The position numbers were made by a program, and so were the translations under genes. Source: Sediminibacillus dalangtanensis (GTDB taxonomy: Bacteria; Bacillota; Bacilli; Bacillales; Amphibacillaceae). From it: a DNA stretch of 64,000 nucleotides. Numbering within the stretch: position 1 is the first letter of the stretch; each line of letters starts with the position of its first letter. The DNA lies in contig NZ_CP046956.1 of the NCBI RefSeq assembly GCF_017792025.1, positions 186,001 to 250,000 on the forward strand, written 5' to 3'. Below are positions 7,458-55,157 of this stretch, one piece after another. Under the pieces are notes generated by a model that worked only from the letters and a program-made list of their open reading frames with translations, did no database searches and was not told the origin of the DNA.

Positions 7458-8252
7458 TTATTTCAGTTTGTATAAGTCAGTCCGACGGTCGCTGTATATC
7501 GGAATGGTCGCTCTGATTTTCTCTACTTCCTCCAAATCAATGGTTCCCGTCAAAATCGTCTCCTCCAGCCCTGCTTCTGCAAGAACTTCTCCCCATGGGC
7601 CGATAATCATGGAATTTCCGCCAAACTCGTTATTAGGATCAGAACCGGAGCGGTTGCAGGCAACCACAAAGCATTGGTTTTCGATAGCCCTGCTGATCAG
7701 GAGAGCCCGCCAATGATCAATGCGCTGTTTCGGCCATTCAGCGACGACATAGAGAACCTTTGTGTCATCCAGCATGTGCGTCCGGATCCATTCCGGAAAA
7801 CGGATATCATAGCAAATAACCGCTGCACTCTTTTGGTTTTCCAATACAAAAGTTCCGTCGCTGTTTCCTTCTATTAAATATTTTTCCTCGTCCATCAATC
7901 GGAACAGATGCGCTTTGCTATATTGCTTGATAATATCCCCTGTCCGGGCAACTACTAGCAAGGTGTTGCTTGTCGCTTCGTCCACTCGATTGGCTACCGA
8001 GCCTGCTATCATATTAATGTCCAGTTCCTTTGCCAATCTGCTCAGAAATGCAATCGTCACATTGGCATCTTCATCAGCGATTTCATCGAGGCGTGTCAAG
8101 TCATATCCAGTTGTCCAAAGCTCCGGCAGCAGAATGGTATCTGGTGCTCTTTTCTCCACCGCTTCTCTAATTAGTTCTTCCGCATGCCGGAAATTGGTTT
8201 GCGGATCACCGAAAGCGATGTCCATTTGGATTAGTGCGTAGGTCTGCTTCAT
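7458..8252 (-). CDS. mtnU: Nitrilase-family omega-amidase MtnU
   Basis: A carbon-nitrogen hydrolase of 264 residues. The nitrilase triad is complete: Glu in LLPELWTTGYD (about residue 44), Lys in YSKAHLF (about 112) and Cys in ICYDIRFPEW (about 146). The order and surrounding motifs match B. subtilis MtnU (YkrU), the omega-amidase that removes the alpha-keto acid amide left when MtnE uses glutamine as amino donor in methionine salvage. It sits about 30 nt downstream of the S-box-controlled dehydrogenase gene and so is probably read from the same SAM-regulated transcript. mtnE itself lies at 21259. Confidence 0.9.
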   Translation of the reverse strand: MKQTYALIQMDIAFGDPQTNFRHAEELIREAVEKRAPDTILLPELWTTGYDLTRLDEIADEDANVTIAFLSRLAKELDINMIAGSVANRVDEATSNTLLVVARTGDIIKQYSKAHLFRLMDEEKYLIEGNSDGTFVLENQKSAAVICYDIRFPEWIRTHMLDDTKVLYVVAEWPKQRIDHWRALLISRAIENQCFVVACNRSGSDPNNEFGGNSMIIGPWGEVLAEAGLEETILTGTIDLEEVEKIRATIPIYSDRRTDLYKLK

Positions 8253-8283
8253 GAATGGTCCGGTCCCCTTTCCTTATTGCCGA

Positions 8284-9372
8284 TTACGGAGCCGCATTCT
8301 CCAGCCACTGTTCCAGCTGTTGAATGCCGTCTGCCACCTGATGTGTTTCCGTTATATTCATCAAATGAATCGACTCTCCCGGCGCTGTCGCGGCAGCGGC
8401 AATCGTTTCTATTGCACCCTTCCGTTCCGGTTCAATGCCTAAATCGGACAAGCTTGTTGGCAGCCCCAGCTCCCGATAATGCGGAAGCAGTCTGTTGATT
8501 TCATCCGGTCGCCCTTCTAACGCTAATTGAACCAAAATACCATAGGCAACTTTGTCTCCGTGCAGAATCGAATGGGTTTCCGGCAAGTGGGTTAATCCAT
8601 TGTGAATGGAATGGGCCCCTGAAATGCGTCCGTATTGATCCCCGAAACCTCCCACCATTCCTCCGGCCATAATGATGGTTTCAACCGTCCGTTTAAATGA
8701 ATCAGTGACCGAACCGGCTTTGAGTGCCTTCAGTGCTTCCGTGCCTTCTGTAAGCAAAGTATCCCGACAAAGGCGGGCAGCCTGCAACGCGATTTCTAAG
8801 GGAATCGCTTTTGTCGGAAGATCGCGTGTTAGTACGTCAGCCTCATACCATTTGGCGATAGTATCCCCGATTCCTGCACGTAAAAAGGAAGATGGCGACT
8901 CGATCAGTATGTTCGGCTCCACGAGCACCATCCAGGTGCTTCGAGGAAAAACAATGTATTCTTCGAAGTTCCCCTCCTGGTCATAAAATACGCTAAGCGG
9001 TGTCCAGGCTGCACAGTTCGAGGCCAAGGTCGGGATCAAAATCACTGGCAGTCCTGTTTGATTTCCGGCTGCTTTTGCCAAATCCAGAACTTTCCCCCCG
9101 CCTACTCCGATAATGAACTCGGAATTTTCCTTAAGAGCTGTTTTGCCAATCCGGCCGGCTTCTTCATGGGTGCATTCATGATGATAAGATAGGTAGGTCA
9201 GCGGCACTCCGGGATCGACAAAGTGACGCTTCGCTGCTTCCCATGATTTCACGCCATGCAGCAGCAGCCCGCGGGAAAATCGTTGTTCCGCAATTTTTTT
9301 AGGAAGTAATTCCAATACCCCTTGATAACAATGATAGATGGCAGGAGCACCTTGCACTTGGATTGAACTCAA
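8284..9372 (-). CDS. Iron-containing alcohol dehydrogenase family (YbdH/HcxA-like) dehydrogenase
   Basis: A 362-residue NAD(P)-dependent dehydrogenase of the glycerol dehydrogenase/Fe-ADH fold. The GVGGGKVLDLAKAAG nucleotide motif is at about residue 87. Metal ligands are likely the Asp in RAGIGDTIAKWYE and the His residues in SGAHSIHNGL and ILHGDKVAYG. It resembles E. coli YbdH (HcxA), which reduces 2-oxo acids. Because a SAM riboswitch precedes it and mtnU follows it, a role with a methionine-related keto or hydroxy acid is likely; this is inference. TTG 9372 has GAGGTG upstream; the longer open frame would run into the leader terminator. Confidence 0.85.
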   Translation of the reverse strand: MSSIQVQGAPAIYHCYQGVLELLPKKIAEQRFSRGLLLHGVKSWEAAKRHFVDPGVPLTYLSYHHECTHEEAGRIGKTALKENSEFIIGVGGGKVLDLAKAAGNQTGLPVILIPTLASNCAAWTPLSVFYDQEGNFEEYIVFPRSTWMVLVEPNILIESPSSFLRAGIGDTIAKWYEADVLTRDLPTKAIPLEIALQAARLCRDTLLTEGTEALKALKAGSVTDSFKRTVETIIMAGGMVGGFGDQYGRISGAHSIHNGLTHLPETHSILHGDKVAYGILVQLALEGRPDEINRLLPHYRELGLPTSLSDLGIEPERKGAIETIAAAATAPGESIHLMNITETHQVADGIQQLEQWLENAAP

Positions 9373-9416
9373 TGTAAGCACCTCGCTTTCTATTAATATA
9401 ACAATAATCCATCTCC

Positions 9417-9566
9417 ATATAAAAACCTCTTCCACAAAAGGAAGAGGTTGCGTGCCGGCTCTTCCTCTTATCTTGCAGCAGTGCTGCAGGATTTAGCACC
9501 GTGTGAGTCTATTCACCGGTTGCCGGGCTTCGCAGGGCCATTCCCTCCACCTTCTCTTGATAAGAG
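9417..9566 (-). ncRNA. SAM-I (S-box) riboswitch with terminator
   Basis: Read on the minus strand, the leader starts with P1 CTCTTATC (9566-9559) and AAGAGAAGGTGGAGGGA. It then shows GGCCCTGCGAAGCCCGGCAACC and GGTGCTAAATCC, and closes P1 with GATAAGAG (9472-9465), all hallmark S-box elements. A strong terminator hairpin AACCTCTTCC/GGAAGAGGTT (9424-9449) followed by a T-run ends just before the dehydrogenase start. High SAM should therefore shut off the dehydrogenase-mtnU transcript. Confidence 0.95.
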
Positions 9567-9707
9567 TATAAGATTCTCTATAGATGCTTGCATTATCCCA
9601 CCACGAGTACATCCTGTCAAGAAAGGCTGTTGTTCCTGCTCTATTGTAATGCCTGTAAAGTTCTAGCCAGAAGACTGTAAGAGTTGGCATCATTTCTACT
9701 TGTAATA

Positions 9708-9723
9708 CGTAAGTACGTATAAA
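9708..9723. promoter_or_regulatory. AraR-like operator, upstream box
   Basis: 16-mer with ACGT centre; about 12 of 16 positions agree with the B. subtilis AraR site ATTTGTACGTACAAAT as I recall it. Its centre is 38 bp from the second box. Confidence 0.6.
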
Positions 9724-9745
9724 TGTATATTAACTAAAATATCAT

Positions 9746-9776
9746 AGTTGTACGTATGAATAACCGAGTGTATAAT
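9746..9776 (+). promoter_or_regulatory. Sigma-A promoter overlapped by AraR-like operator
   Basis: TTGTAC (9748-9753), 17-nt spacer, TATAAT (9771-9776). The operator-like 16-mer AGTTGTACGTATGAAT (9746-9761; 13 of 16 to the AraR consensus) covers the -35 box. It should drive the GH43-abnA pair with a very short leader and be repressed in the absence of arabinose. Confidence 0.8.
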
Positions 9777-9797
9777 GGAAAAAGAAGGAGGGAGAAA

Positions 9798-10958
9798 ATG
9801 AAAAATCCAACAGTGGAATCGTTTACAGTTGAAACGAAAACAGGAATGGAACCGGTTTTACCCGGAACAGTGAAATTGGAGATGGAAGGAGGAGTAACCG
9901 GGGATTTTTGTGTACAGTGGGAGACGATAACTGAAGAAATGTATTCCACCCCAGGATGGCATACCATTCACGGAAAAATAGTTGAGTCATCGTTTGTCAA
10001 CCCATTGATTGAACAACGAGCAGACCCTTATATACTTAAACATACAGATGGCTACTATTATTTTACCGGTTCCTATCCGCTTTATGATCGGATTGTTTTA
10101 AGAAGAGCAAAGACAATCGAAGGGCTTCGGACTGCGGAAGAAACAGTAATCTGGAGAAAACATGAAAGTGGGATAATGTCAGAGCATATTTGGGCTCCGG
10201 AAATACATTTCATTGATGGAAAATGGTATATGTATTTTGCAGCCGGTGATCAAGAGGATATATGGGCGATTCGTCCGTACGTTCTAGAGTGTTCAGACGC
10301 CAATCCATTAGAAGGTGAATGGGTCGAAAAAGGAGCAATAAACACCGATTTCCAAAGCTTTTCACTCGATGCTACAACTTTTGAGCATCACGGAGACCGC
10401 TATCTTGTTTGGGCGCAAAAGGTAAACAATGATACCATTTCCAACCTCTATATTGCGAAGATGAAAAATCCCTGGACTATCGTGGGACCGCAAGTCTTAC
10501 TGGCCACACCGGAATTTGAATGGGAGCAACAAGGGTTTCATGTAAACGAAGGCCCTGCGTTTCTTGAACGGAATGGGAAAGTATTTATTGCCTATTCAGC
10601 AAGCGCTACAGATGACCGCTATGCGATGGGACTGCTTTCAGCAGAATCGGACAGTGACCTTCTTAAGAAAGAATCTTGGTATAAAGAAAAAGAGCCTGTT
10701 TTTCAATCATCAGAGGTAACCGGGGAATATGGACCAGGTCACAACAGTTTCGTTGTAGATGATAAGGGGATTGACTTCATTGTCTATCATGCTCGTCCAT
10801 ACAAGCACATCACTGGGAATCCTCTATATGACCATAATCGCCATGCAAGAGTACAACAGTTGTTTTGGGAAAAGGACGGGAAGCCTTATTTTGGGATTCC
10901 TGGCCAAAAAGTGACGTTGCCTACTGACACTGTGCAGGCCAGGCTTTACGTGAGATAA
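9798..10958 (+). CDS. Intracellular GH43 alpha-L-arabinofuranosidase with N-terminal Ig-like domain
   Basis: A 386-residue glycoside hydrolase. Residues 1-60 look like a bacterial Ig-like (Big_4) domain (PVLPGTVKLEMEGG, then GWHTIHGKI). Residues 65-386 form the GH43 five-bladed propeller. The likely general base is the Asp in QRADPYIL (about 76), the pKa-modulating Asp is in FSLDATTF, and the general acid Glu is in VNEGPAFL; GPGHNSF supplies the conserved His. There is no signal peptide, so it should act in the cytoplasm on imported arabino-oligosaccharides. ATG 9798 follows AAGGAGGG. It is the first gene of an AraR-type regulated unit with abnA. Confidence 0.88.
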   Translation: MKNPTVESFTVETKTGMEPVLPGTVKLEMEGGVTGDFCVQWETITEEMYSTPGWHTIHGKIVESSFVNPLIEQRADPYILKHTDGYYYFTGSYPLYDRIVLRRAKTIEGLRTAEETVIWRKHESGIMSEHIWAPEIHFIDGKWYMYFAAGDQEDIWAIRPYVLECSDANPLEGEWVEKGAINTDFQSFSLDATTFEHHGDRYLVWAQKVNNDTISNLYIAKMKNPWTIVGPQVLLATPEFEWEQQGFHVNEGPAFLERNGKVFIAYSASATDDRYAMGLLSAESDSDLLKKESWYKEKEPVFQSSEVTGEYGPGHNSFVVDDKGIDFIVYHARPYKHITGNPLYDHNRHARVQQLFWEKDGKPYFGIPGQKVTLPTDTVQARLYVR

Positions 10959-10976
10959 AAAGCAGGAGGTTACATG

Positions 10977-12044
10977 GTGAAAAAAAGAATCGTTTTATTC
11001 ATGATGGCTTTGTTTGTTCTCGCGGCGTTTTCCTATGGAGTTGAAGATCAGAGCGATGGACAGGTTGTGGTGGCAAATGGAAAGCCGCCCGTTGGTAAAG
11101 TGCCGATGTCAGGAGATATTGGGGATTACGTCGAAGGGGTGGTCGATGACCCTGTTCATGATCCGGCTTTATTTAAAGATAACGGCACCTATTATGTCGC
11201 TTCCACGGGTATCGCCAGAACCCCGGACGACCCGGGCGGTATATATTTGCGAAAGTCGAACGGAACTATAGGCGGCCCCTGGGAAGCTATCGGAGAAGTA
11301 CCAGCACCCGATTGGGTGCAGTCGTATGGAGTAAGTCATTTATGGGCACCTGACGTTGTGAAAAAGGGGAATACCTTTTATTTATATTATGCTGTTTCCA
11401 CTTTTGGTACGAATCGTTCTGCAATAGGTGTTGCCACAACACGTACTCCTGAAGATCCTGAAAGCTGGATAGACAAGGGGCCGGTACTGACTTCTACTCC
11501 GGGGCAGGAGCAGTATAACGCGATTGACCCCATGGTATTTCATGACAACGGAAAGTGGTGGTTGGTGTTCGGTTCCCATTTCAGCGGTATCCATTTGCAA
11601 GAGTTGCAGAATATGACAACGCCGACAGGACCAGTATATACACTGGCAAGCAGAGCATCAACAACTGAACATAATGCCATTGAGGCACCAACTATTTTCA
11701 AAAAGGGCGATTACTATTACTTGGTTACCTCCTGGGATCGTTGCTGTGCAGGACTTAGCAGTACATACAAAATTGCTGTCGGACGATCCGAGTCGATTAC
11801 AGGGCCATACGTTGATCAAAATGGTGTCCCTTTGATAGAAGGAGGAGGAGAAGTGATCCTGGGAAATCTGGACAACCAAATCGGTCCGGGCGGCCAGGAC
11901 TTTCTGAAAGACAGAGGTATTGATTATATGGTTCATCATTACTATGACGGAAATGCTGGAGGAATTATCCGTATGCAGATATGGGGAGTTTCCTGGCGTG
12001 ATGGATGGCCATATTTAGAAAAGAAGCCTTCGAAAAGCTCTTGA
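10977..12044 (+). CDS. abnA: Secreted endo-alpha-1,5-L-arabinanase AbnA (GH43)
   Basis: Cleaves the arabinan backbone outside the cell. The N-terminus is a signal peptide (KKR, then a hydrophobic run to about residue 22, ending AAFSYG). The GH43 domain follows, with catalytic Asp in VHDPALFKDNG, Asp in AIDPMVFHDNG and Glu in AIEAPTIFKKG. The GPGGQ and MVHHYYD motifs match endo-arabinanases such as B. subtilis AbnA. GTG 10977 has AGGAGGT at a better distance than ATG 10974. The length (about 355) equals a single catalytic domain, with no binding module. The gene ends just before an AraR-like box. Confidence 0.92.
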   Translation: MKKRIVLFMMALFVLAAFSYGVEDQSDGQVVVANGKPPVGKVPMSGDIGDYVEGVVDDPVHDPALFKDNGTYYVASTGIARTPDDPGGIYLRKSNGTIGGPWEAIGEVPAPDWVQSYGVSHLWAPDVVKKGNTFYLYYAVSTFGTNRSAIGVATTRTPEDPESWIDKGPVLTSTPGQEQYNAIDPMVFHDNGKWWLVFGSHFSGIHLQELQNMTTPTGPVYTLASRASTTEHNAIEAPTIFKKGDYYYLVTSWDRCCAGLSSTYKIAVGRSESITGPYVDQNGVPLIEGGGEVILGNLDNQIGPGGQDFLKDRGIDYMVHHYYDGNAGGIIRMQIWGVSWRDGWPYLEKKPSKSS

Positions 12045-12049
12045 GAGAA

Positions 12050-12065
12050 AATTATACGTATAAGT
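12050..12065. promoter_or_regulatory. AraR-like operator upstream of araN
   Basis: AATTATACGTATAAGT, about 12 of 16 positions matching the AraR consensus, lies right after abnA and 235 nt before araN. Confidence 0.5.
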
Positions 12066-12263
12066 TACCCAGAATATCGACCAAACTTATTGACGAGTTA
12101 TTGGAAAGGTGCTAATATTCAGATAAACGAAGAATACTTGATGGAGTTGGGTGCCTCTGAAAGCTTGTAATAAAAGTAAAATGTATGCGTTATCATATTG
12201 TTCATACAAGTTAAGTCATTGGTAACGCAGCCAGTCATTTCAGCGATTTTTTATGTGTAGAAA

Positions 12264-12277
12264 TGTAAGCGATTTAA
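12264..12277. promoter_or_regulatory. Candidate cre site (CcpA) upstream of araN
   Basis: TGTAAGCGATTTAA matches the catabolite response element TGWAANCGNTNWCA except near the 3' end. It lies about 20 nt before the araN start, where it could block expression in the presence of glucose. Confidence 0.5.
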
Positions 12278-12298
12278 AAAGGGGAAGGGGATAAAAAA

Positions 12299-13636
12299 AT
12301 GGAAAAAAAGACTTTGTTATCCATCATTATTGGACTGATTGTTCTTTTACTCGCCGCGTGCGGTGGGGGAGGGGAAGAGGCCTCTGGAGAAGCGGAAGAG
12401 ACAGAAGTGATAGGTGGTGATTTGGAAGGTGCTACAGAGTTGACCTATTGGACGTTTGTCGGTCAGCACGTTGACTTATTTAGGGATGCTGCGGAAAGAT
12501 GGAATGAAGAAAATCCGGATAGGCCAATCAAACTTGTGGCAGAAACGTATCCTTATGACCAGATGCATAACAATCTTCTTCTTTCGCTACAATCAGGAAA
12601 GGGTGCTCCGGATATTGCAGACATTGAATTAGGACGTTACGCGAACTATATGCAGGGAGAACCGCAGCTTGAACCAATGAATGAGTATATTGAGCCTGTA
12701 CTGGATCAAGCAGTTACTTCACGTTTTGAATTGTATGCGAAGGATGGAAACTACTATGGTGTTCCCACACATGTGGGCGCTACGGTGATGTATTACAATA
12801 CAGAAATCATGGAGGAAGCCGGGGTAGATATTGATTCGATTAAAACGTGGGACGATTATGTCGAAGCAGGAAAAAAAGTAACGGAAAATACAGATGCTGT
12901 TATGTGGAATGTTGGTACAACTGATTTTCTGATGGATTTTTGGCCAATTGTTTCGCAGAGAAATTCCGATTTTTTCAATGAAAATGGAGACGTAACGATT
13001 GATAACGAGGTCAATACAGAGACGCTGCAATTTTTGCATGATGTAATCTATAAGGAAAAAATTGCGGAAATAACACCGGGTGGAATGAACCAGTCTGAAG
13101 AATTTTATGGATACATGAACGATGGTGGTGCTGCGTCAATTCTTGCTCCTATTTGGTATATGGGAAGATTTATTGACAGCATGCCTGATTTGAAAGGTAA
13201 GATAGCAATCCGTCCAATGCCTGCCTGGGAAGAAGGCGGCAACCGTTCCGCAGGAATGGGTGGAACAGGTACAGTAGTTACCAACCAGTCAGAGGACCCG
13301 GACCTGGCCAAGGAATTTTTAGCATACGCGAAGCTCTCGGAAGAAGGCAGTGAAAAGTTGTGGACAGTGCTTGGTTTTGATCCTCCGCGCTGGGACGTTT
13401 GGGAAAGTGAAGTAGTACGCGAAGACAACAAGTACTATGATTACTTTGGTGATAATATTTTTGATGTCCTTCTGGATGTCCGCGATGAAATTAACACATT
13501 GAATATTACAGAAAAAACGCCGGATGTTGCTACAGAATATAACAGTAACACTGCGGAAAATGTGCTGCGACAGCAGTCGAAGAGTCCAGAGGAAGGTCTG
13601 AAGGATTTAGCAGAGTATGTAAGGCAGCAACAATAA
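12299..13636 (+). CDS. araN: Arabino-oligosaccharide-binding lipoprotein AraN
   Basis: Extracellular solute-binding protein (family 1) of the arabino-oligosaccharide ABC importer; 445 residues. It has a lipoprotein signal (LLLAAC, Cys about residue 21), then an acidic Gly/Glu linker. Stretches such as LTYWTFVG, YPYDQMHNNLLLSLQ, THVGATVMYYN, IWYMGRFIDSMPDLKGKIAIRP and LWTVLGFDPPRWDVW agree closely with B. subtilis AraN. ATG follows AAGGGGAAGGGG. It is separated from araPQ by abfA, unlike the B. subtilis order. No ATPase is present here, so a shared MsmX-type ATPase elsewhere is expected. Confidence 0.94.
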   Translation: MEKKTLLSIIIGLIVLLLAACGGGGEEASGEAEETEVIGGDLEGATELTYWTFVGQHVDLFRDAAERWNEENPDRPIKLVAETYPYDQMHNNLLLSLQSGKGAPDIADIELGRYANYMQGEPQLEPMNEYIEPVLDQAVTSRFELYAKDGNYYGVPTHVGATVMYYNTEIMEEAGVDIDSIKTWDDYVEAGKKVTENTDAVMWNVGTTDFLMDFWPIVSQRNSDFFNENGDVTIDNEVNTETLQFLHDVIYKEKIAEITPGGMNQSEEFYGYMNDGGAASILAPIWYMGRFIDSMPDLKGKIAIRPMPAWEEGGNRSAGMGGTGTVVTNQSEDPDLAKEFLAYAKLSEEGSEKLWTVLGFDPPRWDVWESEVVREDNKYYDYFGDNIFDVLLDVRDEINTLNITEKTPDVATEYNSNTAENVLRQQSKSPEEGLKDLAEYVRQQQ

Positions 13637-13650
13637 AGTAAAGGCGTAAA

Positions 13651-13687
13651 AGGGAAGCATGGCAAAAAGGGCTCTGCTTCTCTTTTT
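13651..13687 (+). terminator. Terminator after araN
   Basis: GGGAAGCA pairs with TGCTTCTC and is followed by six T. It uncouples araN from abfA, which has its own promoter. Confidence 0.7.
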
Positions 13688-13748
13688 TATTGGAAAGGTA
13701 AAACATTGACGAAAACCCTCACCTTTTATTTGAAAAGTAAAAAAACTG

Positions 13749-13800
13749 TTGATAAATTCAATCCATTTAGGTATACTTTATATAACTTATACGTACATAT
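13749..13800 (+). promoter_or_regulatory. Sigma-A promoter and AraR-like operator for abfA-araPQ
   Basis: TTGATA (13749-13754), 17-nt spacer, TATACT (13772-13777). The 16-mer ACTTATACGTACATAT (13785-13800; 13 of 16 to the AraR consensus) sits on the expected transcription start. The leader to GTG 13950 is about 165 nt and shows no other clear element. Confidence 0.75.
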
Positions 13801-13805
13801 TATAA

Positions 13806-15467
<1,662 letters not shown>

Positions 15468-15537
15468 TTGTATGCCGAACGAGTTCGGATCGAACAGACC
15501 ATATTTAGAATAAAACGATGAATAGGGAGGGGTTCTG

Positions 15538-16485
15538 ATGTCTTCTATTTCTTCTGCTGATACAAAAACGGAGACACGTACTAGAAGAGAGCCAAATAAA
15601 TTATTGCGATTTTTGAACTCGAAAAAAGTTGTTCCATACATTTTTGTAAGCCCTTTTATCCTAACGTTCCTTGTGCTTACACTTTATCCTGCTATTCAGG
15701 GAATAATCATGAGTTTTCAAAGTGTATTGCCAGGACAGGTGGAGTTTATTGGGATGCAAAATTATACACGGATATTTAACGATACGTTCTTTACGGCTCT
15801 TTCCAATACAACAATATTTGTCGTATTGACAGTGTTGATCCTGACGATTCTGCCGATGCTGTTGGCCGTTTTACTGGATTCCAAGTATGTTAAATTGAAA
15901 ACTTTATTCCGTGCTTCATTATTTGTTCCGGCTCTTACTTCTACTATTGTAGGCGGTATGATTTTCCGGTTGATGTTTGGCGAACAGGACACAGCAGTTG
16001 CTAACCAAATACTCAACTTTGTTGGAGGAGATTCCGTCAACTGGAGATTTACAGCTTGGGCAGGGATGTTTCTAATGGTAGTGCTTGCTTCCTGGCGCTG
16101 GATAGGAGTCAACATTTTATATTTCCTGGCCGCACTGCAAAATATATCTGATGAATTGTACGAAGCGGCCGATATTGATGGCGCATCTGCTTTTCAGAAG
16201 CTGCGGTTTATCACCATTCCCCATTTGAAGCCTATCATCATTTTTGTCAGCACGATTACGATTATCAATGGATTCAGGATGTTCGAGGAAAGCTTTGTTT
16301 TTTGGGAAGCAGGTTCTCCGGGAAACATCGGTTTAACGGTTGTCGGCTATATCTATCAACAGGGGATACAGCAAAATGACATGGGCTTCGGCGCTGCTGT
16401 CGGGGTTGTTCTGATGCTGATTATTTTCCTGGTAAGCTTTGTTTATTTACTGCTTACAGGAACCTTTAAAAAGGGGGAAGAGTAA
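15538..16485 (+). CDS. araP: Arabino-oligosaccharide ABC permease AraP
   Basis: MalF-type inner-membrane permease, 315 residues. A basic cytoplasmic N-terminus is followed by six membrane segments. The EAA loop EAADIDGASAFQKLRFITIPHLKP near residue 215 contacts the shared ATPase. Stretches such as FVPALTSTIVGG, MFLMVVLASWRW and GFRMFEESFVFW match B. subtilis AraP. ATG follows GGGAGGGG. It pairs with AraQ, whose gene begins right after the araP stop. Confidence 0.94.
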   Translation: MSSISSADTKTETRTRREPNKLLRFLNSKKVVPYIFVSPFILTFLVLTLYPAIQGIIMSFQSVLPGQVEFIGMQNYTRIFNDTFFTALSNTTIFVVLTVLILTILPMLLAVLLDSKYVKLKTLFRASLFVPALTSTIVGGMIFRLMFGEQDTAVANQILNFVGGDSVNWRFTAWAGMFLMVVLASWRWIGVNILYFLAALQNISDELYEAADIDGASAFQKLRFITIPHLKPIIIFVSTITIINGFRMFEESFVFWEAGSPGNIGLTVVGYIYQQGIQQNDMGFGAAVGVVLMLIIFLVSFVYLLLTGTFKKGEE

Positions 16486-17331
16486 ATGGCTAAGGACCAA
16501 AAAAATAAAACGTTATGGAAATGGGTTGCCAATATAGGTTTGGGTATCATTTGCTTTATCGCTTTATTTCCGATAATCAGTCTGGTGGTTTCGTCTTTTA
16601 TGCCTTCTTCTGTGCTAATGCGAAATGGGATAACATTCAATATTGATTGGGAGCAACTAAGTTTCTATAACTATCAATATATTTTTACTGAGGCTGCCAG
16701 TTACTGGTCTTGGTACGGAAATAGTTTAGTCATATCGGCTCTTACGATCGTCCTTTCGTTGTTCTTTTCTTCCATGGTCGGTTACGCCTTGGCAATGTAT
16801 GAATTCAAAGGAAGGAATTTCTTTTTCGTGCTGGTGTTATTCATCCTGATGGTTCCTTTCGAGATTTTGATGCTGCCGCTATATCAGTTAATGATCAGTA
16901 CACAATTAATCAATACGTATTTAGCTGTTATTTTGCCTATGGTTGTGGCTCCAGTCGCTGTTTTCTTTTTTAGGCAGTATGCACTCGGGCTGCCGAAAGC
17001 ATTGATGGATGCAGCGAGAATAGACGGATCGACCGAATACGGTATTTTCTTTAAAATCATGCTTCCGCTGATGGGACCGTCGCTAGCTGCCATGGCGATT
17101 TTACAAGGACTGGCCAGTTGGAATAACTTTTTGTGGCCGTTATTGGTCCTCCGTTCCAATGATATGTTTACCTTACCAATCGGGTTAGCCACATTGCTTA
17201 CTCCTTATGGTAATAACTACGATGTCTTAATAGCGGGCTCTGTTATGACAATTATTCCGATTATCATCCTGTTCATTGTTTTTCAACGTTTCTTTATATC
17301 TGGCTTGACCGTCGGGGGCGTAAAAGGATGA
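16486..17331 (+). CDS. araQ: Arabino-oligosaccharide ABC permease AraQ
   Basis: MalG-type permease, 281 residues with six membrane segments. The EAA-type loop reads DAARIDGSTEYGIFFKIMLPLMGP near residue 180 and the C-terminus ends with the usual ISGLTVGGVKG. It starts immediately after the araP stop, with AAAAAGGGGGAAGAG inside the araP 3' end as ribosome binding site. With AraN and AraP it imports arabinose oligomers released by AbnA; AraQ-type permeases in B. subtilis use the multitask ATPase MsmX. Confidence 0.94.
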   Translation: MAKDQKNKTLWKWVANIGLGIICFIALFPIISLVVSSFMPSSVLMRNGITFNIDWEQLSFYNYQYIFTEAASYWSWYGNSLVISALTIVLSLFFSSMVGYALAMYEFKGRNFFFVLVLFILMVPFEILMLPLYQLMISTQLINTYLAVILPMVVAPVAVFFFRQYALGLPKALMDAARIDGSTEYGIFFKIMLPLMGPSLAAMAILQGLASWNNFLWPLLVLRSNDMFTLPIGLATLLTPYGNNYDVLIAGSVMTIIPIIILFIVFQRFFISGLTVGGVKG

Positions 17332-17402
17332 AAAATATCTATTGGGAGATTGCGATTTTCCAGCTCTATAGTCTGTGAAATAAACGGAGGAAGGTGCCTG
17401 AA

Positions 17403-18029
17403 GTGAACGCCAAAACAGTGGTGACGACATTAGATACAATCTTAAACTGGATAACGAAATTGGCTTTGCTTAATTTCCTTTGGATTTTGTATACGTTTAA
17501 AGGACTAATTATCGGTGGGGTTTTCCCAGCAACAGCAGCCGCAATGGGAATCGTTAGAAAATGGTTGAGAGGGGAAAGGGATTTGAAAACCTGGCAAACT
17601 TTCGATCAATTTTTCCGGATCGAGTTTAAAAATGCAAATGTTCTTGGATGGATTCTTGCTGCTTTTGGGATGCTTCTCTATCTAAACTACCAAGTGATCG
17701 CATCATCGTCTGATGAGTTGTTTTTTGTTATTCCTTTTGCCTTTTACTTTGTTTTATTTCTATACAGCTTAGTGGTCATTTGGTCGTTTCCATTACTGAT
17801 TCACTACCAGACAAAAGTCTATCAATACATAAAAAATGCACTCATCATCGGTCTTACCAAACTGCACATTTCCGTGAGTGTTGCCGTATTAATGTTCGTC
17901 TTGCTATACGTTTCCGTTGATTATCCATCGATCATCCCTTTCTTTCTGTTTAGTTTGGGCGCTTTGGCCTGGCTATGGCCGACTCTGCCGATTCTGATGA
18001 AATTGGATGCCAAATTATCAGGCAAATAA
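17403..18029 (+). CDS. DUF624 (YesL-like) membrane protein
   Basis: A protein of about 208 residues with five hydrophobic segments, belonging to the YesL/DUF624 family. The family is usually found next to family 1 sugar ABC permeases; its role is unknown. N-terminal LNWITKLALLNFLWILYTFKG and then GVFPATAAAMGIVRKWLRGE are typical. GTG 17403 is placed after GGAGGAAGG; GTG 17394 in the same frame is possible. It follows araQ by about 60 nt and probably belongs to the same transcript. Confidence 0.85.
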   Translation: MNAKTVVTTLDTILNWITKLALLNFLWILYTFKGLIIGGVFPATAAAMGIVRKWLRGERDLKTWQTFDQFFRIEFKNANVLGWILAAFGMLLYLNYQVIASSSDELFFVIPFAFYFVLFLYSLVVIWSFPLLIHYQTKVYQYIKNALIIGLTKLHISVSVAVLMFVLLYVSVDYPSIIPFFLFSLGALAWLWPTLPILMKLDAKLSGK

Positions 18030-18116
18030 ACAGTCGACCTTATGCAGAAAGAACGGTGATTTAAAAAATACGTTTGCAATTGTTTACTTATCTGTTTGTA
18101 AAAGGAGGGGCTTATT

Positions 18117-19601
18117 ATGAGTAATAGCCTGGTTATCAATGCCGACTTAAAGGAAGGAAAAATAAACAAGAATATCTATGGGCACTTTGCTGAACATTTG
18201 GGGAGATGTATTTATGAAGGTATCTGGGTTGGAGAAGAGTCCGAAATCCCCAATACGAATGGCATCCGTAATGATGTACTGCAAGCATTGAAGAATTTAA
18301 ACATCCCGGTGCTTCGCTGGCCTGGAGGCTGTTTTGCTGACGAGTATCATTGGAAAGATGGTGTCGGTCCGAGAGAGAAGCGGAAACGAATGGTCAATAC
18401 TCACTGGGGCGGTGTGGTTGAAAACAACCATTTCGGTACCCATGAGTTTATGATGCTATGCGATATGCTTGGAGCGGAACCATATATTTGCGGAAATGTT
18501 GGCAGCGGCACAGTGCAGGAAATGGCGGAATGGGTGGAATACATGACGTTTGATGGGGAATCCCCTATGGCTGACTGGCGCAGACAGAACGGGCGGGAGG
18601 AACCGTGGAAGCTACAATTCTTTGGTGTCGGAAATGAGAACTGGGGCTGCGGTGGCAATATGCGTCCCCAGTATTATGCAGATCTGTATCGCCGCTATCA
18701 AACGTATGCCCGGGATTATGGAGATAACAAGCTATTTAAGATTGCCGGCGGCGCTAACATAGACGATTACCATTGGACAGAGGTATTAATGAGAGAAGCT
18801 GCACCATTTATGGATGGGCTTAGCCTGCATTATTACACCATTCCAGGCGACTTCTGGAAAGGAAAGGGTTCTGCTGTAGATTTTACGGCCGATGAGTGGG
18901 ATACCACGTTAAGGAAGGCTTTGTATATGGAGGAGCTAATTACCAAACATGGCACAATCATGGACAAATACGATCCTGATAAACGGATCGGCCTGATTAT
19001 CGATGAGTGGGGAACCTGGTTTGATGTGGAGCCTGGTACAAACCCAGGTTATCTGTTTCAGCAGAATACAATTCGGGACGCACTGGTAGCAGGTGTCACG
19101 TTAAACATTTTTAACAATCACCAGGATAGGATACAAATGGCCAATATAGCACAGACAGTAAATGTTTTACAGGCAATGGTGTTAACAGAAGGCGCACAGA
19201 TGATCCTTACTCCGACTTATCATGTGTTTGACATGTATAAGAAACATCAAGATGCTGAAAAACTTTCTATCAACCTTAATTCAGACAGTATTGCAACTTC
19301 AGATCAACAGGTATACCAACAAGTAAGTGCTTCTGCTTCCATATCGGAAGAAGGGGAAGTACTTGTTACACTTTGTAATTTAGATCAGGAGAAACAAGCT
19401 CCCCTTCATCTTACGGTCCGCGGCATGTCGTTTGCAAAGGTAAACGGCAGAATTTTAACAGCAAATGAACCGAATGCCAGAAATACATTTGAACAACCGG
19501 ATTCTATTAAACCAGAAGAGTTTACGCAGTTTCAGCAGGATGAGGATATGCTGCACGTGGATCTTCCTTCTAAATCTATCGTGTCATTGACGATCAAGTA
19601 G
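18117..19601 (+). CDS. abf2: Second GH51 alpha-N-arabinofuranosidase (Abf2/Xsa-like)
   Basis: 494 residues, cytoplasmic. GH51 signatures are [13 protein letters not shown] near residue 70, acid/base Glu in [11 protein letters not shown] (about 173) and nucleophile Glu in [11 protein letters not shown] (about 293), with LSLHYYT between. It resembles B. subtilis Abf2 (XsaA), which prefers different linkages from AbfA, so the pair likely covers 1,5- backbone and 1,2/1,3- branch bonds; that division is inferred. ATG follows AAAGGAGGGG. It is clearly divergent from the first GH51, so the two are old paralogues and not a recent duplication. Confidence 0.94.
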
Positions 19602-19639
19602 CCGAACGAGTGGAAAATTTTGTGAGAAGGAGCTGTAGG

Positions 19640-20875
19640 ATGAATATTTCACAAAACATATACAAGCTAGCTGACCAAGTCTCCGGAACAGCCATTGACT
19701 TGCCGGACATTCAGGTGTCCCGCTATGCGATAGAACAGGTTCCTGATTATGTTAAGGAAAATACGTATAAACAAACTGTACTTGTAGCCGATGAAAATAC
19801 AAAGTACGCTGCAGGTGAAAAACTGCAAAATCTTTTGACTGAAACAGGGGTCGACGCGAAATTAGTCCTTCTTCGGCCGAATAGGCATGGCCAGGTGATA
19901 GCTGATGAACAAACGATTGTCCAGCTATTATTGGAAACACCACCAAAAACGGAATTATTGATTGCGGTTGGATCAGGAACAATTCATGATATTGTTAGGT
20001 TTGTCGGTTTCAAAATGAACATACCCTTTCTATCTGTCCCGACAGCTGCATCTGTCGACGGGTTCACATCCAAAGGAGCTCCATTGATTTTACGCGGAGA
20101 GAAAAGAACGATTCAAACGGCTTTCCCTATTGCGGTGTTTGCTGATATAACAGTGTTGAAAGCAGCGCCTCGACAACTGACCGCTGCGGGGTTTGGAGAT
20201 ATAATCGGAAAGTATACATCCTTGTTGGATTGGGAAATCTCCGCACTCGTCGGCGGCGAGCCATACAATAAACTGGCTGCAGATATCACCAGGAAATCTT
20301 TAGTAACTTGCGTTGAAAACGTAGAAAAAATAGCCGCTGCGGATGAAGAGGGAGTTCGGATATTGACAGAAGCTCTCATAGAGTCGGGATTGGTCATGCT
20401 CTTATTGGATTTTTCCCGTCCCGCCTCAGGGGCTGAACATCATCTGTCCCATTACTGGGAAATGGATTTGTTAAAATCGGATAAACCGCAAATCTATCAT
20501 GGAGCGAAAGTGGGAGCAGCAACAGCAATTGTCACTGAATTATATAAACGATTTGCATCCTGCTATCAACCAGCCGGTGACCCTGGCAAGGGGACAATTA
20601 GTGACAAAATCGAAAAGCTATATAAAAATTGGAGTTACATTGAAAAAGCAATCGAAGCGTTGCCTGATCCTTCTTCTATAATACAACTGTTGCGAAAAGT
20701 GGGTGGTCCTGGCGTTCCAGGAGAATTAGGGATTCCGGAACGGCTTGTCGAGCAAAGCTTAAATGAGGCCTACCAATTGAGGGACCGTTGGACCGGCCTG
20801 CGCTTGATAAATATGATTAAAAAAGAACCGTTAAATTACCCCTTATCGGAAATGTGTTGGCCGGATGAGTTGTAA
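19640..20875 (+). CDS. egsA: sn-Glycerol-1-phosphate dehydrogenase EgsA/AraM
   Basis: Reduces DHAP to glycerol-1-phosphate, the precursor of heptaprenylglyceryl phosphate ether lipids in Bacillus; 411 residues. The dehydroquinate synthase-like fold shows AVGSGTIHDIVRFVG near residue 115 and PTAASVDGFTSKGAPL near 140. Metal ligands are likely the Asp in AAGFGDIIGKYTSLLDW and the His residues of GAEHHLSHYWEM and IYHGAKVG. The gene name araM comes from its place in arabinose operons, as here. ATG 19640 follows AGAAGGAG. The 3' end overlaps the next small gene. Confidence 0.93.
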   Translation: MNISQNIYKLADQVSGTAIDLPDIQVSRYAIEQVPDYVKENTYKQTVLVADENTKYAAGEKLQNLLTETGVDAKLVLLRPNRHGQVIADEQTIVQLLLETPPKTELLIAVGSGTIHDIVRFVGFKMNIPFLSVPTAASVDGFTSKGAPLILRGEKRTIQTAFPIAVFADITVLKAAPRQLTAAGFGDIIGKYTSLLDWEISALVGGEPYNKLAADITRKSLVTCVENVEKIAAADEEGVRILTEALIESGLVMLLLDFSRPASGAEHHLSHYWEMDLLKSDKPQIYHGAKVGAATAIVTELYKRFASCYQPAGDPGKGTISDKIEKLYKNWSYIEKAIEALPDPSSIIQLLRKVGGPGVPGELGIPERLVEQSLNEAYQLRDRWTGLRLINMIKKEPLNYPLSEMCWPDEL

Positions 20876-21110
20876 AGGCTGTATGCAGATAGTGGATACT
20901 ACTGATGAAGTGAAACAACTTGTCGCTGAACAACTGAAATTAGAAACAAATTTAGTAAGTGACAGCGAATATGAAGACAGACTGAAAATTTGTAAGGACT
21001 GTCCGTCATTGTCAAGTGATATAACTTGTATGCACTGCGGATGTTATATACACTTTCGGACAAGATTAAAAGATAAAAGCTGTCCTCACCCTTCTGGCGC
21101 TAAATGGTAA
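20865..21110 (+). CDS. Small Cys-rich (zinc-ribbon-like) protein coupled to egsA, DUF6171-like
   Basis: An 81-residue protein with eight Cys in CxxC-like pairs: CKGCM at the N-terminus, CKDC near residue 45, CMHCGC near 58 and a final KSCPHP. The pattern suggests zinc binding and resembles small proteins classed as DUF6171; that family call is tentative. The ATG overlaps the last 11 nt of egsA, so translation is probably coupled. Function unknown. It ends the arabinan gene set and is followed by a terminator. Confidence 0.75.
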   Translation: MSCKGCMQIVDTTDEVKQLVAEQLKLETNLVSDSEYEDRLKICKDCPSLSSDITCMHCGCYIHFRTRLKDKSCPHPSGAKW

Positions 21111-21119
21111 GCTCGTGCA

Positions 21120-21158
21120 AGAAACCTTATCCGTTATATTGGATAGGTTTCTTTTTTT
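21120..21158 (+). terminator. Terminator closing the arabinan cluster
   Basis: GAAACCTTATCC/GGATAGGTTTC hairpin followed by seven or more T. Confidence 0.85.
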
Positions 21159-21258
21159 GTAAATTCAAAAACAGATTGTTCATAGCTTTACAAATACCAG
21201 GTTAGTAGCTATGATTAGATACTATAATTTTATTGATCAATCGGGAGTGTGACACAGT

Positions 21259-22437
21259 GTGAAAAATTTTGAGCAATCGGATTTATTGAATAGACTGCCT
21301 GATCAGTTTTTTGCCAATCTAGTGGCAAAAGTGAAAGGCTTGGTTGAAGAAGGACACGATGTAATTAATTTGGGGCAGGGAAACCCGGATTTGCCGACAC
21401 CTGATGCCATTGTAAAAGAATTGCAGGCCGCGGCGGAAAATCCGGCTTATCATAAATATTCGCCATTTCGTGGCTTTTCGTTTTTAAAGCAGGCTGCAGC
21501 AGATTTTTATAAACGGGAATACCATGTAGACCTGGATCCGGATTCGGAGGTTGCTGTTTTATTCGGTGCAAAAACAGGGCTTGTAGAATTAAGTCAATGC
21601 CTGCTTAATCCAGGGGACCTCGCATTGCTCCCTGATCCCGGCTACCCGGATTACATGTCGGGTATCGCTTTGGCGAATGCTGAAACGTACTTGATGCCAT
21701 TACTGAAAAGCAATGCATTTCTGCCAGACTATCAATCCATTAATCCGGAACAGTGGGAAAGAGCCAAACTGCTGTTTTTGAATTATCCTAATAACCCGAC
21801 TTCTGCTGTAGCGGACAAGTCTTTTTTTGATGAAACGATTGCGATGGCAAATAAGCATAATGTGTGTGTCATCCACGATTTCGCTTACGGGGCACTGGGG
21901 TTTGACGGAGAGAAGCCGCAAAGCTTTCTCCAGTCTGAGGGTGCCAAGGAAGTCGGTGTGGAAATTTATACGCTTTCCAAAACCTATAACATGGCAGGTT
22001 GGAGAGTGGCTTTTGCAGTCGGAAACCGCTCGGTAATCGAAAGCATCAACCTGTTGCAGGACCATATGTATGTCAGCTTGTTCGGTGGAATTCAGCATGC
22101 CGCTGCCAAGGCGCTTACTGGAGACCAGACAGCAGTGTCTCAACTGGTGCAAACCTATCAAAATAGAAGAGATCGATTTATTGATCGATTAAATGAAATC
22201 GGTTGGAAGGTAGAAAAGCCGAAAGGAACTTTCTTCGCCTGGCTGCCGGTGCCAGATGGCTTCACCTCTGAATCTTTTGCCGATTTATTACTGGAAAAAG
22301 CCCATGTGGCGGTGGCACCGGGTAACGGATTCGGGGAGAATGGCGCAGGCTATATACGTGTTGGCTTGTTGGACAAGGAAGAACGCTTGGAGGAAGCAGC
22401 AGATAGGATAGCGGCATTGGGGCTATTTGATAAGTAG
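21259..22437 (+). CDS. mtnE: Methionine-salvage aminotransferase MtnE
   Basis: PLP-dependent class I aminotransferase, 392 residues. It converts 2-oxo-4-methylthiobutyrate to methionine. The PLP lysine lies in IYTLSKTYNMAGWRVAF (about residue 238), with LNYPNNPTSA and the Arg of GYIRVGLL as substrate contacts. The N-terminus (LPDQFFANLV, INLGQGNPDLPTPD) and EVAVLFGAKTGLVEL agree closely with B. subtilis MtnE (YkrV). GTG 21259 follows GGGAGTG. No S-box is seen in the 150 nt upstream, although its partner mtnU at 7458 is under one. Confidence 0.92.
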   Translation: MKNFEQSDLLNRLPDQFFANLVAKVKGLVEEGHDVINLGQGNPDLPTPDAIVKELQAAAENPAYHKYSPFRGFSFLKQAAADFYKREYHVDLDPDSEVAVLFGAKTGLVELSQCLLNPGDLALLPDPGYPDYMSGIALANAETYLMPLLKSNAFLPDYQSINPEQWERAKLLFLNYPNNPTSAVADKSFFDETIAMANKHNVCVIHDFAYGALGFDGEKPQSFLQSEGAKEVGVEIYTLSKTYNMAGWRVAFAVGNRSVIESINLLQDHMYVSLFGGIQHAAAKALTGDQTAVSQLVQTYQNRRDRFIDRLNEIGWKVEKPKGTFFAWLPVPDGFTSESFADLLLEKAHVAVAPGNGFGENGAGYIRVGLLDKEERLEEAADRIAALGLFDK

Positions 22438-55010: not shown

Positions 55011-55157
55011 TAGCTCCAGCGCTTACCCCCTCGAGGGCAAAAGGCCGCCACTTCGAGGCTTTGCTTAAGCTTGTCAGAGGCCCAAACAATGTGGGTCATG
55101 CAGGCGTTGCCACAGGACGTGGCGGCTTTAGCCTATACTCCTTTTGTCCTGGGCGGA
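55011..55157. repeat. Dispersed intergenic repeat, family A, copy 2
   Basis: Starts TAGCTCCAGCGCTTACCCC and ends with TCCTTTTGTCCTGGGCGG. The 39-nt core at 55089-55127 is identical to that of copy 1 (2791-2829), and the flanks are similar but shorter. Lies between csp and the methyltransferase gene. Confidence 0.8.

Follow-up and report, generated by a model that had tools for sequence, protein, structure and literature searches.

The window analysed here, a 64,000-nucleotide stretch of the Sediminibacillus dalangtanensis genome (contig NZ_CP046956.1, positions 186,001 to 250,000), contains on its minus strand an S-adenosylmethionine (SAM) riboswitch of the S-box type with its terminator, followed by genes for an iron-containing alcohol dehydrogenase (Fe-ADH) family protein, hereafter DH, and an MtnU-like amidase. 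This arrangement had been put forward in a preliminary description made from the sequence alone and is confirmed here. On balance, the locus probably belongs to an S-box-controlled module that would make methionine from its hydroxy analogue, 2-hydroxy-4-methylthiobutyrate (HMTB), independently of salvage from methylthioribose (MTR).

Anatomy of the riboswitch locus

The riboswitch aptamer (9465..9566, minus strand) was matched to RF00162 by cmscan at 81.9 bits (gathering score 44.4), with the full model (1-108) covered. The folding energy of the leader is -59.2 kcal/mol (z -4.28), and 0 of 200 shuffles were as good. An intrinsic terminator with 10 pairs and a U tail lies at 9424..9449 (minus strand), and its 5' arm, as read by eye from the sequence, is able to pair with the 3' end of aptamer stem P1 and the next bases. 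A promoter (TTGACA, 17 nt, GATAAT, with TG before the -10 box) was placed at 9592..9620 (minus strand) by a consensus scan scoring 11/12. Such a scan is weak on its own, having given 4 matches in the region against 3.3 expected from shuffles, and the promoter was called because its position fits the leader, the score alone not being enough.

The DH gene (8284..9372, minus strand; PF00465) encodes 362 residues when read from a TTG codon at 9372. This start is considered likely because the start in the open reading frame (ORF) list, a GTG at 9435, falls within the terminator, most relatives begin to align at residues 17-25 of the longer ORF, and the DH of Sediminibacillus halophilus (P0002), the nearest named relative by DH with 91% identity, has 362 residues. 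At 31 nt downstream, the gene described earlier as mtnU was recovered as a carbon-nitrogen hydrolase (7458..8252, minus strand; PF00795 at 168.7 bits). Its top NCBIfam model, PRK10438, gave 163.6 bits against a cut-off of 249, and no NCBIfam model exceeded its cut-off. MtnU is an omega-amidase that acts on the transaminase by-product 2-oxoglutaramate, and the same activity is proposed for the MtnU-like protein. Evansella caseinilytica has a single 639-residue protein (P0017) that combines DH with MtnU.

The suggested relationship of DH to YbdH/HcxA was upheld. The top NCBIfam model is PRK10586, which we take to be YbdH and whose own title reads 'oxidoreductase', and DH is 39% identical to HcxA of Escherichia coli, an enzyme that reduces several 2-oxo acids. 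Since the model score (310 bits) is under its cut-off (429), the protein is called HcxA-like and is not filed as HcxA. The closest solved structures are glycerol dehydrogenases, and DH keeps D170, H254 and H271 (362-residue numbering) at positions matching GldA residues that presumably act as metal ligands. The glycerol-dehydrogenase models are nevertheless under their cut-offs (264 vs 336 bits; 220 vs 700 bits), and Asp121, Thr175 and Gly249 of GldA are replaced by Cys120, Lys174 and Arg249. E. coli HcxA has the same three residues, which were found in 37/37, 37/37 and 36/37, respectively, of the S-box- or MtnE-linked sequences. We infer that this Cys/Lys/Arg trio marks the HcxA/YbdH family, and Lys174 and Arg249 could hold the carboxylate of the substrate.

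An MtnE-like aminotransferase gene (21259..22437, plus strand) matches PRK08068, the model to which Bacillus subtilis MtnE presumably belongs, at 675.8 bits against a cut-off of 494. Its product matches at 71% two proteins named L-glutamine--4-(methylsulfanyl)-2-oxobutanoate aminotransferase by JGI; the PDB aminotransferase 6l1l, which we take to be BacF, is also close. With the S. halophilus protein as query, this gene is the sole close copy in the genome, the next best being at 34%. In S. halophilus (L013) and S. terrae (L014), the MtnE-like gene is the divergent neighbour of the S-box, whereas in the window it lies 11.8 kb from the S-box and DH, separated from them by an 11.6-kb island (9625..21184) without counterpart in these two genus mates. 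In blastn comparisons, the island site was found to be 17 nt in L013 and 15 nt in L014. The island, of arabinan type and outside the system, sits exactly between the S-box promoter and the divergent mtnE, beginning four bases upstream of the -35 box; its ORFs, read by eye with no family search, include GH43-like, arabinofuranosidase-like, sugar ATP-binding cassette (ABC) transporter and AraM-like genes.

The genome, one contig of 4.10 Mb and 99.86% complete, contains 12 S-boxes, which corresponds to one in roughly 342 kb. Searches of it for mtnA (TIGR00512), mtnK (TIGR01767) and mtnD (PF03079) gave no match; mtnW, mtnX and mtnB were not searched. Therefore, 2-oxo-4-methylthiobutyrate (KMTB) is not expected from MTR here, and the 'hydroxy-acid branch of methionine salvage' of the preliminary description is not supported in the usual sense of that term. 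The genome also has two S-box metN-type operons. The MetQ of one of them (G000:C1:1259.7-1262.5 kb) groups with MetQs beside DH in Aquibacillus and Ornithinibacillus, and this operon is a candidate for the importer.

Conservation and co-occurrence of the locus

The pairing of S-box and DH was observed to recur in relatives. A total of 80 DH loci from named genomes (1.29 Mb), out of 100 qualifying, were searched with a covariance model built from the genome's own twelve S-boxes. This search gave 39 S-boxes, against about 4 expected at the density of the window genome, and Rfam returned RF00162 in 10/10 loci checked, all picked from loci with an own-model match. In 22/80 loci, the S-box precedes DH in sense orientation, directly in 8 and with a MetN-MetI-MetQ-type transporter between in 14. 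It is divergent from DH in 5/80, on a transporter just downstream in 5/80 and distant in 2/80; in 1/80 (L033), a broken DH stands beside a divergent S-box. In the last case, from Halobacillus litoralis SL-4, DH is split into two ORFs and adjoins an S-box met-transporter operon (L033:8040-9110). On a quick DH tree, the S-box label (S-box within 4.5 kb of DH) is clustered, with 33/85 rows labelled and 7 changes vs 26.2 on shuffling (0/500 as low), and the side of the tree with Sporolactobacillus and most Enterococcus rows (31 rows) carries zero S-box labels.

At least one methionine-type partner (transporter, MtnE or MtnU) was found beside DH in all 32 loci with an S-box within 4.5 kb. The recurrent neighbours are MetQ/MetI, the MtnE-like transaminase, MtnU and a flavin mononucleotide (FMN)-dependent enzyme (FMN_dh). 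A further 17 regions were hand-picked in the family of the window genome, 12 with DH and 5 with the transaminase but without DH; an S-box is present in 11/12 of the former (the exception being L137; L129 is the same locus as L060) and in 1/5 of the latter (L142). In Marinilactibacillus (L066:7974-11173), DH, an MtnE-like transaminase and MetQ stand in a row, and the only S-box of the locus is more than 5 kb off on the other strand.

The FMN-dependent 2-hydroxy-acid oxidase/dehydrogenase (PF01070) recurs beside DH in a subset of relatives. Members of this FMN enzyme family take L-2-hydroxy acids as substrates, and the nearest solved structures are lactate oxidase, lactate monooxygenase and hydroxyacid oxidase 1. 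At E values up to 1e-60, the gene was found at 17 places in 16/38 genomes, these being 37 named genomes (including L033 with its broken DH) and the window genome. At 12 of the 17 places, it lies within S-box/MetQ-MetN-MetI operons, four of them away from the DH of the same genome; the 5 unlinked copies fall outside the linked copies on the tree or at their unresolved base. Adjacency of the FMN gene and DH is hinted at by P0051 and shown directly by L133, with the gene order MtnU, MtnE, S-box, MetN, MetI, FMN, DH, MetQ. P0051, with FMN_dh and Fe-ADH in one chain, was not used as a true fusion, its FMN part being by eye without the C-terminal third and its contig only 6.3 kb long. In the MetQ tree, one side holds the 14 FMN-linked MetQs along with 5 unlinked ones. 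MetQ motifs were considered as a sign of a hydroxy-acid ligand; those examined showed no clean ligand change, and no claim is made from them.

Two S-box operons (L117:9362-11361 and L134:6590-9776) carry genes of the enoyl-CoA hydratase family and of CoA-transferase family III next to the FMN gene, and P0348 joins FMN_dh with an enoyl-CoA hydratase. Some FMN enzymes could thus decarboxylate HMTB to methylthiopropionate, which would then be handled as a coenzyme A (CoA) ester.

Co-occurrence was assessed in 146 genomes of the family of the window genome, a sample that overlaps the named genomes and in which counts ignore shared ancestry. DH is present in 44/146 (E up to 1e-70) and the MtnE-like gene in 98/146 (E up to 1e-120), the latter in 44/44 genomes with DH vs 54/102 without. 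The two genes lie within 2.5 kb of each other, mostly divergently, in 32/44. The MTR kinase gene mtnK exceeded the cut-off in 17/146 genomes, with 7 more weak matches, and none of these 24 carries DH; for the cut-off set, the counts are 0/44 genomes with DH vs 17/102 others (Fisher 0.0017). Among the 37 named genomes, 21 have MtnE or MtnU no further than about 6 kb from DH, and mtnK is found in 1/21 of these vs 9/16 of the others. Outside the family, DH and MTR salvage do co-exist: mtnD was found in 9 of the 38 genomes (4 more with weak matches only), all 9 of which also have mtnK. Where the two coexist, the operon is an S-box transporter-DH operon without its own MtnE and MtnU in 9/10 cases.

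A proposed hydroxymethionine route and its alternatives

Genes behind an S-box are switched on at low SAM. Under this condition, the riboswitch would let transcription through by the mechanism of its family, which the sequence fits. A methionine-type importer would bring in HMTB, DH would oxidize HMTB to KMTB using NAD(P)+ and a divalent metal, and the MtnE-like transaminase would convert KMTB and glutamine to methionine. MtnU would then hydrolyze the resulting 2-oxoglutaramate, pulling the transamination. We infer each of these reactions, the last two from what is known of the protein families. In relatives, the regulon appears to add a MetNIQ-type importer and the FMN-dependent enzyme. Two oxidizing enzymes side by side suggest one per enantiomer, such that the FMN enzyme may serve the L form of HMTB and the Fe-ADH the other. 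Because genomes without MTR salvage need another supply of KMTB, DH is the candidate present for this role, and because no KMTB is expected from MTR, the route is read as oxidative scavenging of an external hydroxy acid. The preliminary description had DH interconverting KMTB and HMTB. Genomic context makes these two the best-supported and likeliest substrate pair, with other 2-hydroxy acids as possible substrates, and the direction is now read as oxidative. That interpretation is supported in part. It left out the MtnE-like gene 11.8 kb away, the linked transporter and FMN oxidase of the relatives and the place of the E. coli homolog in the MetJ regulon.

DH might instead act on another or on several 2-hydroxy/2-oxo acids (e.g., 2-oxobutyrate) and be tuned to methionine by regulation only, which is unlikely but has a basis in the contexts of its homologs. 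In Listeria (L096:5474-9086), a T-box (RF00230, 124.2 bits) heads an operon with an amino-acid ABC transporter and, after it, a DH homolog. The T-box specifier reads CAC (His) in the Rfam alignment and the sequence; this reading is unsure because the bulge UGGA presumably has no obvious fit to the tRNA-His discriminator. In Enterococcus and Vagococcus clusters, typified by L046 and repeated in L047 and L078, the homolog is divergent from an amino-acid ABC transporter and another class I/II aminotransferase (Pfam). In an Enterococcus clade typified by L061, it stands between a D-2-hydroxyacid dehydrogenase-family gene and phosphotransferase system (PTS)-like genes (identified by eye), with UxuA. 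The DH family is therefore broader than methionine, and the range of 2-oxo acids taken by HcxA would also fit a less specific enzyme. What speaks for methionine is the methionine-type partner in 32/32 S-box loci and the fusion P0017, which ties DH to KMTB transamination.

Improbable as well is that DH runs in reverse and reduces KMTB to HMTB, either as an overflow valve or on the way to a sulfonium osmolyte such as dimethylsulfoniopropionate (DMSP). The algal DMSP route passes through HMTB, HcxA reduces 2-oxo acids, and many of the S-box species bear names of salt-loving genera. However, S-box genes are on at low SAM, when disposal of KMTB would waste methionine, and MTR is not a source of KMTB in the window genome. 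What recurs around DH is a set of importers, a transaminase and an amidase; no methyltransferase search was made, and the non-recurring neighbours are mostly unidentified.

Two readings of DH as an enzyme of alcohols appear far less credible. As an alcohol dehydrogenase for methylthioacetaldehyde in the dihydroxyacetone phosphate (DHAP) shunt of methylthioadenosine or 5'-deoxyadenosine salvage, DH would combine Fe-ADH chemistry with SAM-linked control, which would fit; this role is very doubtful given that mtnK and mtnA were not found in the genome (the shunt aldolase was not searched for) and that DH and mtnK are mutually exclusive in the family sample. Equally doubtful is a glycerol dehydrogenase placed behind an S-box by chance. 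The best solved relatives of DH are such enzymes and the metal-ligand positions are conserved, but the curated models stay under cut-off, Asp121 of GldA is Cys in all 37 linked sequences and in HcxA, and the methionine context is repeated across loci.

Several observations weigh against the proposed HMTB route itself. The FMN partner was not found in the window genome (E up to 1e-60), 45/80 loci have no S-box, and L016, L017, L019 and L026, close relatives with DH, MtnE and MtnU, show no locus S-box. The genus mate L142 has no DH, yet an S-box (52.9 bits) stands before its MtnU. In 49/146 family genomes, the transaminase occurs without DH or mtnK, so the MtnE-like gene has other roles, and the co-occurrence counts ignore shared ancestry. 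Outside the family of the window genome, DH and mtnK occur together: among the 38 genomes tested, mtnK exceeds the cut-off in 10 (1 more weak match). The His-type specifier read in Listeria also belongs here, as does a homolog on a Rahnella plasmid with no methionine gene among its annotated neighbours. C120, K174 and R249 are also present in Enterococcus relatives with sugar-acid/PTS context. These pocket residues therefore point neither to a particular acid nor to methionine, and their use as substrate proof was dropped. Finally, nothing in this analysis documents that HMTB is naturally available as a substrate in these habitats.

Some further observations concern the same regions. In L142 (4953-8494), two tandem MtnE-like genes are divergent from the S-box-MtnU unit, as if DH had been lost. 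Listeria was set aside as a further S-box case, the own S-box model finding none in L096 where Rfam finds the T-box. Plasmid and phage searches gave distant DH homologs only (<60% identity), none bearing on the window; those examined as yardsticks were from E. coli, E. albertii, Rahnella, Bacillus badius and Listeria. Elsewhere in the window, an Rfam scan detected T-box, cobalamin, FMN and thiamine pyrophosphate elements, and two matches to a Bacillaceae-1 small RNA family lie at 2783-2849 and 55081-55147 (minus strand).

Relation to known systems and significance

The proposed route shares parts with several known systems. Animals convert methionine hydroxy analogue by an L-2-hydroxy-acid oxidase and a D-2-hydroxy-acid dehydrogenase, followed by transamination. 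The relatives likewise combine a protein of the FMN 2-hydroxy-acid oxidase family with a second dehydrogenase and a transaminase; unlike in animals, the second bacterial enzyme is of the Fe-ADH family, and the loci are under a SAM riboswitch with an importer. In Bacillus methionine salvage, methionine is formed from MTR via KMTB, and an MtnE-like transaminase and MtnU at the last step, together with S-box control, are in common with the window. The difference lies in mtnA, mtnK and mtnD, which were not found in the window genome, where KMTB must come from elsewhere. GldA resembles the window DH in family and metal-ligand positions and differs from it at the Cys, Lys and Arg positions, the curated cut-offs not being reached.

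The closest parallel is the hcxA (ybdH)-ybdL locus of E. coli, where the DH homolog is divergent from a gene for a methionine-oxo-acid transaminase. Previously, ybdH has been listed among MetJ-regulated genes of unknown function that co-occur with methionine salvage, with MetJ boxes and repression (PMC3228920), and hcxA and ybdL belong to a MetJ iModulon with ChIP-exo sites (PMC11701608). The two genes are thus repressed together with methionine genes via MetJ, and the methionine link of the family is not wholly new. Control in E. coli is by a DNA repressor, in contrast to the RNA switch in the window; YbdL is only 27% identical to the window transaminase, and no MtnU, transporter or FMN oxidase is among the annotated genes of the E. 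coli locus (L101).

A review reports that the alpha-hydroxy and alpha-keto forms of methionine support growth of E. coli auxotrophs (PMC3274233). Passages of another study describe SAM-riboswitch genes in Bacillales, Clostridiaceae and Chloroflexi as probably involved in cysteine/methionine metabolism or transport and do not name the present gene (PMC3766115); ybdH and mtnE are not named in passages of PMC4239095. In open-literature titles and abstract openings, an S-box-controlled hydroxymethionine route is not described, while the subscription literature, such as a 2004 survey of Gram-positive methionine regulation, may mention it. No bacterial gene set for the use of methionine hydroxy analogue was found in open-literature listings.

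A wider generalization is offered tentatively. Bacillales may possess an unnamed, complete route from environmental hydroxymethionine to methionine under a SAM riboswitch, comprising an importer, two enantiomer-specific 2-hydroxy-acid oxidizing enzymes, MtnE and MtnU, and in the family of the window genome this route would occupy genomes without MTR kinase. The Fe-ADH family concerned might then be a general dehydrogenase of amino-acid hydroxy analogues, the amino acid being announced by the regulator (methionine by S-box and MetJ; histidine by the Listeria T-box).

Overall, the parts are of known families and the type of methionine-acquisition regulon is known, and the proposed pathway would settle a specific question. 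The hydroxy analogue of methionine is used as a feed additive, and the cluster, if the reading is true, names a bacterial gene set for hydroxymethionine use. It would also give a function to the MetJ-regulated hcxA-ybdL pair and identify the genes that let E. coli grow on methionine hydroxy analogue. For Bacillales, many annotations as 'iron-containing alcohol dehydrogenase' would become a testable prediction, and the route would suggest a reason for the persistence of MtnE and MtnU where MTR salvage is missing.

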